The position numbers were made by a program, and so were the translations under genes. A stretch of 32,245 nucleotides of DNA from Hyphomicrobium sp. (GTDB lineage: Bacteria > Pseudomonadota > Alphaproteobacteria > Rhizobiales > Hyphomicrobiaceae): the NCBI GenBank assembly GCA_013141015.1, contig JABFRT010000050.1:1-32245 (forward strand), in the 5' to 3' direction. The notes beneath the pieces are model-generated. The model was not told the origin of the DNA. It was given only the letters and a program-made list of their open reading frames with translations, and did not search any database. Each line of letters opens with the position of its first letter. The first letter of the stretch is position 1. This document shows positions 20,056-28,058 of the stretch, piece after piece.

Positions 20056-20754
20056 CTACGCCAGCGCGATGTGCTCAAGCACGCGTTCGGCGGCGCGGAC
20101 CGGGTCGGCGGCGGCGGTGATTGGCCGTCCGACAACGAGATGATTGGCACCGGCACGCAACGCGTCTTGCGGCGTCGTGATGCGCTTCTGGTCGCCCGCG
20201 TCGCCGCCCGGCAAGCGGATGCCCGGCGTGACGATCAGGAATTTGCGCGATGAGGCGGCGCGAATGGCCGCGGCTTCCTGCCCCGACGCAATCACGCCGT
20301 CCATGCCGGCATCTTCCGCCATGCGTGCGCGCTTCAACACGAGTTCAGCAGGCGTTGAGACAATGCCCTGCTCTTGCAGATCGGCTTGATCGAGGCTGGT
20401 CAAAACAGTCACGGCGAGCAACTTCAGCGGCGCTGACCCGCGGCCCTTGACGGCGGCCTGCATGGTCTTGCTGTCGGTGCCGTGGATGGTCAGGAAATCA
20501 AAGCCGTGACCGGCGACGGCGGCGACGGCTTTTTCCACCGTGTTGCCGATGTCGAGGAACTTCATGTCGAGGAAGATGCGCTTGCCGTCGTTTTTCATCT
20601 CTGACGCCAGCGCCAGGCCGTCGTTGAACAGCAACTCAAGGCCGATCTTGTAGAAGCTGACCGTATCGCCCAGTACATCGACCAGCGCGCGCGCTTCATC
20701 GTACGACGGATAGTCGAGGGCTACGATCAGTTTGTCTTTGATGGCGTTGGTCAT
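20056..20754 (-). CDS. pyrF: Orotidine 5'-phosphate decarboxylase
   Basis: The 232-residue enzyme converts OMP to UMP in pyrimidine synthesis. The catalytic Asp-x-Lys-x-x-Asp array is visible in FLDMKFLDIGNT (Asp63, Lys65, Asp68), with VALDYPSYDEA at the N-terminus, the TIHG strand, VTVLTSLDQADL, and the phosphate-binding VTPGIRLPGGDAGDQKR and NHLVVGRPIT near the end. The start overlaps the stop of the upstream membrane gene by four bases (ATGA), indicating translational coupling in a three-gene unit with the FMN reductase. Confidence 0.97.
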   Translation of the reverse strand: MTNAIKDKLIVALDYPSYDEARALVDVLGDTVSFYKIGLELLFNDGLALASEMKNDGKRIFLDMKFLDIGNTVEKAVAAVAGHGFDFLTIHGTDSKTMQAAVKGRGSAPLKLLAVTVLTSLDQADLQEQGIVSTPAELVLKRARMAEDAGMDGVIASGQEAAAIRAASSRKFLIVTPGIRLPGGDAGDQKRITTPQDALRAGANHLVVGRPITAAADPVRAAERVLEHIALA

Positions 20755-21200
20755 GGTTTGGCCTGTCGCGACTCGTAGCTAATCCACAACCAGAACATCT
20801 CAATGCAACAGAATAATTGGGCAGTGATGCAGTAAGCTCCAACTGCGCCTTGCCAAGAAAAACCTTGTTTTCCATGTGCTAAGAAGACGATTGCGAGTAC
20901 AGCCAAATTTGTTGCTAGGAGAGTGAAGACTTTAAGTGTCGTTGTGGCAAACCAAATCAAAGAAACATAGAACACTGCTATCGCAATTGTCGTCAAGTCG
21001 TGGCGCGACCAGTCCAAGCCTGTAACAGCAGGAATTGAAAAAGCCAAAAGCAGCAGGGCGTTAATTGCCAAAGCAAAATCAAGCCATTTTACGTGGGCGT
21101 TGAGGGAAATCCAATTTGTCAGCAAGCCCACAACGACCTGTGCGAGCACCGAAGTGAACCAGAACTCTGGCGTTTTCAGCAACGCGATTATGCTGTCCAC
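20751..21200 (-). CDS. Small membrane protein of unknown function
   Basis: The 149-residue product shows four to five hydrophobic segments (SVLAQVVVGLLTNWI, FALAINALLLLAFSIPAV, IAIAVFYVSLIWF, LATNLAVLAIVFLA, GAYCITAQLFCCIEMFWLW). I recognise no family. The GTG at 21200 is chosen because GGAG lies seven bases upstream; an in-frame TTG at 21215 overlaps that site. The gene is noticeably poorer in G+C than its neighbours. It is inserted between the FMN reductase (28-base gap) and pyrF (four-base overlap), so it is co-expressed with pyrimidine synthesis, but a functional link is not evident. Confidence 0.65.
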   Translation of the reverse strand: MDSIIALLKTPEFWFTSVLAQVVVGLLTNWISLNAHVKWLDFALAINALLLLAFSIPAVTGLDWSRHDLTTIAIAVFYVSLIWFATTTLKVFTLLATNLAVLAIVFLAHGKQGFSWQGAVGAYCITAQLFCCIEMFWLWISYESRQAKP

Positions 21201-21228
21201 GGCTACTCTCCGCAACGTAGAATAGTTT

Positions 21229-21828: not shown

Positions 21829-21940
21829 GCGGGGATGAGGTCCTAAGTTTGTGCGGGAGAGGTCACTGGGCTTGACGCCGTACCCAATATACGTCGGAGG
21901 AACCTATAAGGTTTTTCCGGTCGCGCCAATTCATTGAATC

Positions 21941-21961
21941 CCCCTCCCCTCAGGGGAGGGG
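21941..21961. repeat. G/C hairpin, left arm of an inverted pair
   Basis: CCCCTCCCCT-C-AGGGGAGGGG is a ten-base palindrome followed by GGGGTGGGG. The reverse complement of this arrangement occurs at 22088-22127. The 479-base gap 21829-22307 holds these repeats and family 1 copy B, and no supported gene. Confidence 0.75.
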
Positions 21962-22087
21962 TTAGGGGTGGGGTGAAGAGCTAGGCGTGATGAGAATGAT
22001 GAATTTCGGTCTGCACCGGTCGAATGTCCATTTGCGATAAGAATTCTTTGCGCAAGCATTGCGCTTCGAAGGTGGCACCGCTTTTTG

Positions 22088-22127
22088 GTTCTCCCCACCC
22101 CCGTCCCCTCCCCGCGAGGGGGAGGGG
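22088..22127. repeat. G/C hairpin, right arm of an inverted pair
   Basis: CCCCACCCCCGT precedes CCCCTCCCC-GCGAG-GGGGAGGGG, mirroring the unit at 21941 so that the two face each other across about 130 bases. Confidence 0.75.
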
Positions 22128-22162
22128 ATTAGTGGTGCTGCCTACTTGGAAATCGCACTGAC

Positions 22163-22286
22163 TTTCCTTCTCCCTTGGGGAGAAGGTGGTCCGAAGGACC
22201 GGATGAGGGGCTTTTCCCATGCGCTGCGGTTGAGGCAAGCCCCTCACCTGTCACTTCGTGACATCCTCTCCCTAAGGGAGAGGAAA
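22163..22286. repeat. Intergenic palindromic repeat, family 1 copy B
   Basis: It shares TCTCCCTTGGGGAGAAGGTG, the GTCCGAAGGACCGGATGAGGGG block, CCCCTCACCTG and the closing ATCCTCTCCCTAAGGGAGAGG with the copy at 15346-15495, while the middle spacer differs. It lies about 20 bases past the dnaJ stop. Confidence 0.85.
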
Positions 22287-22307
22287 GTGTTGCGGCCCCT
22301 AATCGAA

Positions 22308-23957
22308 TTACCCGCCCTTGCCTTCGAAGAAATCTTTGACGCGGCTGAAGAACCCGGCGCTTTCGGGCGAGGTGTCTTTGTGGGCGGTCTTCTCGAATTC
22401 TTCGAGCAGTTCGCGCTGGCGGCGCGTCAGGTTCTTCGGCGTTTCAACCTCAACCTGAATGTACATGTCGCCGGTCACTTTGCTGCGCAGAACCGGCATG
22501 CCCTTGCCCTTCAAGCGGAACTGCTTGCCGCTTTCGGTGCCGTCGGGAACCTTGACACGCGTGGTCGCCCCTTCAAGCGTCGGCACGTCGATTTGGCCGC
22601 CGAGCGCTGCCGTGGTCATGGCAATCGGCACCTTGCAGAACAGATCCGATCCATCGCGCTGGAAAAATTCATGCGGCTTGATGGACAGGAAAATATAGAG
22701 ATCGCCCGCGGGTCCGCCGCGCAAGCCTGCTTCGCCTTCACTCGCCAAACGAATGCGCGTGCCGTCTTCGACGCCTGCCGGAATGTTGACTGACAGCGTC
22801 CGCTCTTTGGTGATGCGGCCTGCGCCTGAACAGTTGGGGCACGGGTCGTCGATGGTTTCGCCACGGCCGTTGCACGCCGGGCATGTGCGCTCAATCGTGA
22901 AGAAGCCTTGGCTGGCGCGCACTTTGCCGGCGCCGCCGCAGGTCGAACAGGACTTGGCTTTGGTGCCGGCCTTGGCGCCCGAGCCCGAACACGTTTCACA
23001 CGAAACGCTGGCTGGCACGCGGATCTGCGCGGTTTTGCCGGCATACGCTTCGGCGAGCGTGATCTCGAGGTTGTAGCGCAGATCGGCGCCGCGCTCGCGG
23101 CCCGTGCCGCGCCGTGCGCCTTGTTGGCCAGGGCCGCCACGCCGGCCGCCCATGAACTCGCCGAACAGATCGTCGAAAATATCAGACATCGACGACGCGA
23201 AGTCCGGGCCAAAACCTCCGGGGCCGCCGCGCCCGCCACCCATGCCGCCTTCGAATGCGGCGTGGCCGAATTGATCGTAAGCCGCGCGCTTTTGGGTGTC
23301 TTTCAGCGCTTCATAGGCTTCGTTGACTTCTTTGAATTTGTGCTCGGCATCTTTGTCGCCGGCGTTGCGGTCGGGATGGAAATCCTTGGCAAGCCGGCGA
23401 TAGGCCGACTTCAAGTCTTGTTCGGTGGCGTTACGTTGCACGCCGAGAACTTCATAGTAGTCGCGCTTGGCCATGTGTTCAGCCGATCGATAGCGGGCCG
23501 CGGCGGCGGACAGGCCGCTTGCGCCCAGGAACAGGCAAAGGGGTGAGAAGTAGCGGCTGTCCGCGTTCGCAAACGGCGTGCCCGTGTTGCGTTTAAAAAA
23601 GCCGACGTGATTGAAGTCGCCGATGGCGCGCAGCAGAAAACCTAATCCGGCGATCCCTACTACAACGATTTCCCAAGGTGCGAAAAATGCGCGGCGATCA
23701 ATTTCGCCGATTGAGAAAGCGCGTGCTTCAAAGGCGTAAAGCGCTGCGAGTATCGCAATATGCAGCCCAGCCGCCAGGGTCGCAAGTGACGACGGCACGA
23801 ATTGCGGGCCGCCGCCAGCGCTGGCCGGCTTTTCAGGGACGGCAACGTTCAGGCCTTTGGTACCGCCGAGTGCCCAATAGAAATGCCAGAACGCCGCGAT
23901 CCCAAGGACCGCGGCGCTAAGTATCAGGGCGATTTCAGTGATCGTCACTATCGCCAC
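22308..23957 (-). CDS. dnaJ: DUF3995-type membrane domain fused to DnaJ
   Basis: A single open frame of 549 codons encodes two modules. Residues 1-161 are a membrane domain with four hydrophobic segments ([74 protein letters not shown]), resembling DUF3995. Residues 162-549 are a complete DnaJ: the J domain ([14 protein letters not shown] in FHPDRNAG), a Gly/Phe-rich region, four zinc motifs ([32 protein letters not shown]) and the C-terminal substrate domain. No stop separates the modules. The DnaJ ATG at 23474 has no clear ribosome binding site. The frame opens with a GTG three bases after the dnaK stop. Free DnaJ could still arise by internal initiation. Confidence 0.9.
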
Positions 23958-23960
23958 CGA

Positions 23961-25886
<1,926 letters not shown>

Positions 25887-26217: not shown

Positions 26218-26856
26218 CTAGGCTTGCGGTTCGCCCGTTCCAGCATCAGCCGCCAGATCGGGTGCTTTACCGGCTTTGCCGCCGCCGCGCGACACGACAA
26301 CCATGGCTGGCCGCAAGCAGCGGTCGTCGATCAGATAGCCGGTCTGGAAAACCTGCAGCACCGTGCCGTTCGGCACATCGGGGTTCTCCTGCTCCATCAC
26401 GGCTTGATGATGATGCGGATTAAACGGCTGGCCTGCGGGATCGATGGTTTTGACGCCGTGCCGGTCGAGCGCGCTGCGGAAATCACGCTCCGCCAGCACT
26501 ACACCTTCAAGCAGCGTTTTCAAGGCCGGATCGGTATCAATCGCATCCTTCGGCACAGCCGAAATGGCGCGCTGGAAATTGTCACCAACCGACAGGATAT
26601 CCTTGGCGAATTTTGAGATCGCGTACTTGGCGACATCATCTTTCTCCTTTTCCAAGCGGCGGCGGACGTTTTCCGTCTCCGCGACGGCGCGCACGAACTG
26701 GTCATGCTTGTCGGCTACGGCCGCTGTCTTGGCGTCGAGATCAGCCTGCAGCGCGGCGATCACGTCCTTCAACTGGCTGGCGCTGATTTCCATTTCAGGA
26801 GCCGTGGCGGTGCCGTCTTGAGGCGTCGCGTCGTTTGCCGTCGTATCGTCGCTCAT
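26218..26856 (-). CDS. grpE: Nucleotide exchange factor GrpE
   Basis: The 212-residue protein releases ADP from DnaK. The long dimerising helix (about residues 25-85, DVIAALQADLDAKTAAVADK and FVRAVAETENVRRRLEKEKDD) is followed by the beta-wing domain with FNPHHHQAVMEQENPDVPNGTVLQVFQTGYLIDDRCLRPAMVVVSRG split over its two conserved halves. It starts at the ATG at 26856, 143 bases after hrcA, so it may share the hrcA transcript. A separate promoter ahead of dnaK then serves the other two partners. Confidence 0.96.
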   Translation of the reverse strand: MSDDTTANDATPQDGTATAPEMEISASQLKDVIAALQADLDAKTAAVADKHDQFVRAVAETENVRRRLEKEKDDVAKYAISKFAKDILSVGDNFQRAISAVPKDAIDTDPALKTLLEGVVLAERDFRSALDRHGVKTIDPAGQPFNPHHHQAVMEQENPDVPNGTVLQVFQTGYLIDDRCLRPAMVVVSRGGGKAGKAPDLAADAGTGEPQA

Positions 26857-26999: not shown

Positions 27000-28058
27000 T
27001 CAGGTGATCAGCCGGCCAACCAGCTTGGCGGTATAGTCAACCATCGGGATTATGCGGGCATAATTGAGCCGCGTCGGGCCGATCACGCCGAGCACGCCAA
27101 CCACCCGGCGGGTCTGGTCACGGAACGGCGCTACCACCAGCGACGATCCGGACAGCGAAAACAGCTTGTTCTCAGAGCCGATAAATATGCGCACGCCGTC
27201 GGCGTTTTCCGACGCGCCGAGCAATTGAACGATGTCCCGCTTGGATTCAAAATCATCAAACAATTGGCGGATCCGCTCCAGATCTTCAGCCGCGCTGACG
27301 TCTTTGAGCAGATTTCCCTGGCCGCGCACGATCAGGCTTTTGCGCTCGTCCGTCGTGCCCGACCATTCGGCAAGCCCGGCGGTGATGACCTTTTGCGTCA
27401 GGATATCGAGTTCGGCCTTGGCATCGCGCAGCGCCTTCTCAATTGCCGCGCGCGCTTCCGTGATGGTCAGCCCGCGAATGTGGGTGTTGAGATAGTTCGA
27501 AGCCTCCTGCAAGGCGGATGGCGGCAGGCCGGTTGGCAGCGCGATAATGCGGTTCTCGACGTTCTGGTCTTCGTCAACCAGCACCACCAATCCCTTGCCC
27601 GGCTCCAGCGGCACGAATTCGATGTGCTTCAAGCGCGCAACCAGCTTTTCAGCCAGCACCACGCCGGCGCAATGCGAGAGCCCTGAGATCATTTCACCGG
27701 CCTCGGCCAGCAGTTGATCGACCGACTTTTCGCGTTGAAAGCCGATCTGGGTTTCAATCTGGCGGCGTTCGTCCTGGGTGATGTCGCCGACTTCCAAAAG
27801 CCCATCGACGAACATTCTAAGGCCAAGCTGTGTCGGCAGGCGCCCGGCCGAGGTATGGGGCGAGATGATCAGCCCCAAATGTTCAAGGTCAGACATCACG
27901 TTACGGATCGAGGCCGGCGACAGGGAAATCGGAAGCCCGCGCGCCAGATTGCGCGAGCCAACGGGGTCGCCGGTCGCCAGATAACTCTCGACGATTTGCC
28001 GGAGAATAGTGCGCGAGCGCTCGTTCAGCTGCTGCAACTCGCTTTTGCCGTCTATCAT
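27000..28058 (-). CDS. hrcA: Heat-inducible transcription repressor HrcA
   Basis: The 352-residue repressor controls chaperonin genes by binding the CIRCE operator when GroEL keeps it active. The N-terminal winged helix is visible ([24 protein letters not shown], followed by [19 protein letters not shown] and [18 protein letters not shown]), as is the C-terminal dimer domain ([44 protein letters not shown]). No CIRCE element (TTAGCACTC-N9-GAGTGCTAA) is visible around hrcA, grpE or dnaK here, so its targets are presumably elsewhere (groESL). It is divergent from rph. Confidence 0.97.

Follow-up and report, generated by a model that had tools for sequence, protein, structure and literature searches.

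DnaJ is normally a soluble protein that serves as a general partner of DnaK. DjlA is not known to contain a zinc finger or DnaJ_C. To our knowledge, the bacterial J proteins known to be membrane-bound (DjlA, DjlB and DjlC) are separate, scarce proteins. An N-terminal transmembrane segment is described for DjlA of E. coli and Legionella (PMC10754441). DjlA interacts with DnaK and is reported as a class-C J-domain protein, and DjlB and DjlC are reported as tail-anchored J-domain proteins, with DjlC shown to be in the plasma membrane (PMC8215388). Among the papers listed by searches of the open-licence literature, none appeared to describe a DnaJ anchored by a DUF3995 domain. DUF3995 is not named in the papers searched, and PF13160 occurs in one paper, on a chlamydial protease, with nothing usable on the family.

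Here we present the analysis of a locus from Hyphomicrobium sp. (contig JABFRT010000050.1, assembly GCA_013141015.1), in which a DUF3995 membrane domain and a complete class-A DnaJ share one open reading frame. The whole stretch of 32,245 nucleotides that was analysed is called the window. The leading reading, to which we give a probability of about 0.45, is a working membrane-anchored class-A DnaJ that arose from a fusion by loss of a stop codon.

Organization of the locus

The genes are arranged on the same strand in the order hrcA-grpE-dnaK-DUF3995::dnaJ; their coordinates are listed in Table 1. The fused frame contains no internal stop and begins three bases after the stop of dnaK (TAA-TCG-GTG). 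The observation on which the preliminary description was built, a frame that runs from this point through a membrane domain into a full DnaJ, is thereby confirmed. The dnaK TAA, the TCG and the GTG (positions 23955-23963) share one reading frame, and a ribosome reading through the dnaK TAA would produce a DnaK-DUF3995-DnaJ protein.

Table 1. Features of the dnaK-dnaJ region in the window (G238 is the genome with separate genes described in the text)
Feature	Positions	Strand	Basis or remark
Fused frame DUF3995::DnaJ, 549 codons, GTG start	22308..23957	-	open frame and Pfam
DUF3995 module plus junction, residues 1-161	23475..23957	-	N-terminus aligns with start of separate G238 gene
Junction, residues 147-161 (last part of weak helix 4 plus a short linker)	23475..23519	-	no stop; G238 gene ends there in TGA
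Complete class-A DnaJ module (J domain, zinc finger, C-terminal domain)	22308..23474	-	possible internal ATG start at 23474
dnaK	23961..25886	-	AAGGA precedes the ATG at 25886; 3 bases separate the stop from the GTG
grpE	26218..26856	-	
hrcA	27000..28058	-	

Pfam assigns residues 19-146 of the fused frame to DUF3995 (PF13160, E 4.4e-22). The match reaches 79.3 bits against a cut-off of 34.3 and is nearly full length, covering positions 2-122 of the 124 in the profile. The remainder contains DnaJ at residues 166-228, DnaJ_C at 293-507 and DnaJ_CXXCXGXG at 320-380, with the HPD motif at residue 194 and a zinc finger with all four CXXCXGXG repeats intact. The methionine of DnaJ is residue 162 and is preceded by 161 codons in the same frame; unlike in an ordinary class-A DnaJ, the J domain is not at the very N-terminus of the protein. 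In the relatives DUF3995 is a separate gene with a stop soon after helix 4, and those listed end 6-15 residues past the aligned part, whereas the frame in the window continues for 403 residues beyond it.

Chance falls far short of explaining the family match but could account for the open junction by itself. Ten codons in a random frame of the window are stop-free 77% of the time, and an open junction is therefore expected once the stop has gone and the frames agree (1 in 3). The fused frame is real in the present assembly. The genome comprises 3.94 Mb in 69 contigs and is 97.6% complete. That the fusion is known from one genome and one assembly counts against the leading reading.

Downstream of dnaJ (21940-22300) there are short G-rich and C-rich repeat-like stretches, e.g. 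CCCCTCCCCTCAGGGGAGGGG and CTCTCCCTTAGGGAGAGG. A 154-codon frame without a Pfam match (20751-21215, minus strand) lies between pyrF and an FMN reductase gene, in DNA that looks AT-richer than its surroundings.

Separate-gene counterpart and probable origin of the fusion

In G238, a genome of the same order and another family, dnaK, DUF3995 and dnaJ are three separate genes. There dnaK is followed by a stretch that looks hairpin-like by eye, the DUF3995 gene (ATG to TGA), ten bases and the ATG of dnaJ. A second genome of the G238 genus, G322, also carries DUF3995 between dnaK and dnaJ, with the same junction but as a shortened gene; at this locus (L177, G322:C70:40000-45500) the inner part of the gene is missing and the frame is kept to the stop. 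Four other genomes of this genus were read and have a dnaK-dnaJ gap of 78-81 bases and no DUF3995. The DUF3995 gene of G238 (L178, G238:C1:3003500-3009500) follows a GAGGGG that is like the G-rich stretch before dnaJ in its relatives (L182, L184, L185 and L186), as if DUF3995 had taken over the dnaJ ribosome binding site.

The DUF3995 proteins of the window and G238 are 43% identical. The best match of the window protein is that of G238, and the best match of the G238 protein, after that of G322, is the one in the window; the window protein groups with that of G238 in one clade (support 99/96, tree of 44). The GTG start of the fused frame aligns with the ATG start of the G238 gene. Because homology to the separate DUF3995 proteins persists through helix 4, this part of the fusion is read in the correct frame. 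As G238 shows the same order as separate genes, the fusion is likely to derive from an operon DUF3995 gene of the dnaK/dnaJ-linked lineage that lost its stop. The lost stop codon, offered in the preliminary description as the alternative to a real fusion, is thus supported as the way in which the fusion originated. The arrangement may be shared between the two lineages by descent or by transfer. The window copy has a branch length of 1.3 (0.68 for G238), and GC3 is 0.65 in the DUF3995 part compared with 0.74 in dnaJ and 0.78 in dnaK, which might fit a decaying or foreign gene.

A TGA is located out of frame four bases before the DnaJ ATG, so that a single-base error could create a false fusion. 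We consider it quite unlikely that a one-base insertion or deletion near the junction, made in sequencing or assembly, hides the DUF3995 stop and that the true order is dnaK-DUF3995-dnaJ as in G238. The resemblance of this TGA to the G238 junction (TGA, ten bases, ATG) and the single assembly in 69 contigs speak for such an error, but only the last few codons could harbour it, because homology in this frame persists through helix 4, and the peculiarities of charge and helix 4 reported below would have to be coincidences.

Distribution of DUF3995 and dnaJ in related genomes

The genome draws searched for DUF3995 overlap and are samples, and the genome of the window is counted in all of them except in the searches of the G238 genus. 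PF13160 matches 40 of 397 genomes of the order at E 0.001, 37 of them over the cut-off, and 16 of 385 genomes of the class, 13 of them over the cut-off (window genome included in both). Searches with the DUF3995 protein gave 3/60 relatives, 4/103 genomes of the family and 2/12 genomes of the G238 genus, which are also all the genomes covered from its family; those with subfamily alignments gave 26/398 genomes of the phylum and 5/393 in a second draw from the order at E 1e-10. The distribution in these samples is patchy, and the gene is dispensable, being shortened in G322 and missing from most relatives.

The neighbourhood of DUF3995 was searched for dnaK and dnaJ by tblastn at 82 loci (with genomes repeated), then at L217 and L218 and then at nine more, one of which was a weak hit below the cut-off in a 567-codon frame. 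Among the 82 loci and the 11 later ones, both genes are found beside DUF3995 only in the window genome, G238 and G322. Other hits over the cut-off lie in long open frames of up to 388 codons (order search) and 378 codons (class search); where such loci were tested for neighbours, none outside these three genomes had adjoining dnaK and dnaJ. The 549-residue architecture was sought in related genomes, as had been suggested earlier, and a second fused DUF3995::DnaJ frame was not found in the sampled genomes of the genus, family, order, class and phylum. No plasmid record had one place covering 80% of the fusion (DUF3995 alone gave weak matches in 7 plasmid records), and among viral contigs there was no confirmed relative.

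Of 354 relatives, 80 dnaJ loci were kept, and in these 80 a tblastn search (E 0.1) for the DUF3995 part gave no match. A near-full-length dnaJ match is present in 20 of the 21 other genomes of the same genus, each beginning at residue 134 or later, and none of the 20 has DUF3995 in front of dnaJ; the 21st genome (G015) gave partial J-protein matches only. One genome of the genus (G012) has a DUF3995 gene, on a different contig from its dnaJ. In the five near relatives that were read, the gap between dnaK and dnaJ is an ordinary intergenic stretch, and the window has the DUF3995 module in that place. The gap at L121 (genome G011) contains a hairpin with perfect 9-base arms (TGGCGCCCC/GGGGCGCCA, found by eye), which may be an attenuator; the whole of this gap is replaced by the DUF3995 module in the window.

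A second dnaJ elsewhere in the window genome had also been considered: no second class-A match was found in this 97.6% complete genome. A homologue on contig C43 (312-codon frame) aligns on either side of the zinc finger and not over it, and is for this reason probably a class-B J protein.

Membrane topology

According to the positive-inside rule, loops rich in lysine and arginine (K/R) lie inside. In 43/43 DUF3995 homologues the K/R count of loops 1 and 3 exceeds that of the N-terminus, loop 2 and the C-terminus combined; this set includes close relatives and does not amount to 43 independent cases. Mean K/R numbers are 3.4 and 3.4 for loops 1 and 3, and 0.3, 0.3 and 0.4 for the N-terminus, loop 2 and the C-terminus. 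The loops were set from the window sequence and some start codons were chosen by rule; L173 (copy of L129), L174 (the shortened G322 gene) and L166 (partial) were dropped. Because loops 1 and 3 carry most of the K/R, the homologues are predicted to have both ends outside (N-out/C-out). With a topology of this type the fused DnaJ would be exported to the periplasm, away from DnaK and ATP.

An even number of helices had been taken to leave the J domain in the cytoplasm. This assumes an N-terminus inside, against the prediction for all 43 homologues, but the window copy differs from them: its K/R balance is 0, compared with +1 to +10 in 43/43 homologues (the lowest value, +1, is that of L159, whose N-terminus is doubtful), and its loop 2 has three K/R, compared with 0 or 1. 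Since the charge bias of the homologues has been lost, a cytoplasmic J domain is still possible for the window protein, though it would need a change of topology. A hydrophobic anchor is joined to the J domain in the frame; the homologues predict a C-terminus outside, and the window copy is neutral. The last helix, which had been called degenerate, ranks second from the bottom in 19-residue hydropathy among 44 proteins, the one in the window being counted; this point is softened by an insertion scale on which 5 of the 43 others are as weak or weaker. The changes in charge and in helix 4 fit a re-orientation that would keep DnaJ cytoplasmic, and they fit decay or drift as well. AlphaFold models of single sequences were poor (mean pLDDT 53.8 and 43.3) and uninformative on orientation. 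The earlier reading as a whole is partly supported by these comparisons.

Translation start

The internal ATG of DnaJ has a Shine-Dalgarno energy of -2.2 kcal/mol, calculated with an anti-Shine-Dalgarno sequence. Of 2000 random positions in the window, 56% score as well (random median -2.4), in agreement with the earlier remark that this ATG lacks an obvious ribosome binding site. The sites of the 22 dnaJ loci with at least 80% identity are all stronger (-2.7 to -6.6). Because 10 of the 80 dnaJ loci, more distant ones, have sites as weak as that of the window or weaker, a weak site is not rare for dnaJ. The background-level site mildly favours the fusion, and internal starts may occur too. As the DUF3995 part is in the right frame, a ribosome starting at the GTG would be able to make only the fusion, unless the frame shifts.

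It is possible, though we think it doubtful, that the fused frame is real and that functional DnaJ nevertheless comes mainly from the internal ATG; a decaying DUF3995 gene would then yield the fusion as a by-product that is minor, non-functional or exposed to the periplasm. The intact J, zinc-finger and C-terminal parts are consistent with this, as are the periplasmic C-terminus predicted from the homologues, the dispensability of a gene that is shortened in G322, the dnaJ start sites, which are often weak in close relatives and no stronger than that of the window at 10 of the 80 loci, and a long branch and weak helix 4 that fit relaxed constraint. However, the ATG site is at background level and weaker than in each of the 22 relatives with at least 80% identity, and the DUF3995 motifs are well conserved (Pfam E 4e-22), which argues that decay is not advanced.

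Proposed mechanism and implications

For the working membrane-anchored DnaJ that we prefer, the following steps are proposed. A DUF3995 gene of the dnaK/dnaJ-linked lineage, situated between dnaK and dnaJ, would have lost its stop and become joined in frame to dnaJ. Ribosomes that have terminated at the end of dnaK would probably re-initiate at the GTG and produce a class-A DnaJ of 549 residues held in the membrane. DnaK would be recruited to the inner membrane by the J domain of this protein, provided that the domain faces the cytoplasm. Such an orientation may be allowed by the loss of charge bias, by the additional arginines in loop 2 and by the weakening of helix 4, either with the N-terminus inside and four helices or with the N-terminus outside and helix 4 not inserted. 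Some soluble DnaJ may also arise from the internal ATG.

A more far-reaching proposal, which we regard as unlikely, is that the organism's only class-A DnaJ is now an integral membrane chaperone. On this view the DUF3995 topology was reversed along with the fusion, or its last membrane crossing was given up, with arginines gained in loop 2 and helix 4 weakened, and the main DnaJ would operate at the inner membrane. If this were true, the operons in which dnaK, DUF3995 and dnaJ are separate would suggest that DUF3995 takes part in the folding of membrane proteins with DnaK and DnaJ. A fusion that is made and faces the cytoplasm would be a natural test of whether a cell can live when its only class-A DnaJ is fixed to the membrane, and would combine gene fusion with a change of topology. 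The occurrence of the operon link to dnaK and dnaJ in a second lineage hints at a function of DUF3995.

Comparison with known systems

The fused protein resembles class-A DnaJ (Hsp40) in its complete J domain with HPD, its four CXXCXGXG repeats, its C-terminal domain and its hrcA-grpE-dnaK-dnaJ cluster, and differs by 161 extra N-terminal codons that encode a DUF3995 membrane domain. With DjlA it shares the combination of a J domain and an N-terminal membrane segment. The anchor of the window protein is, however, a DUF3995 domain of several helices and is attached to the main class-A DnaJ; the presence of a zinc finger and DnaJ_C sets the fused frame apart from the class-C architecture of DjlA. 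DjlB and DjlC are unlike the fusion in their C-terminal anchor and in having HscC as partner. The DUF3995 (PF13160) proteins have the same domain and motifs, and that of G238, the nearest, occupies the same operon position; unlike the window protein they have no dnaJ fused at the other loci tested, and all 43 charge-tested ones are predicted to be N-out/C-out.
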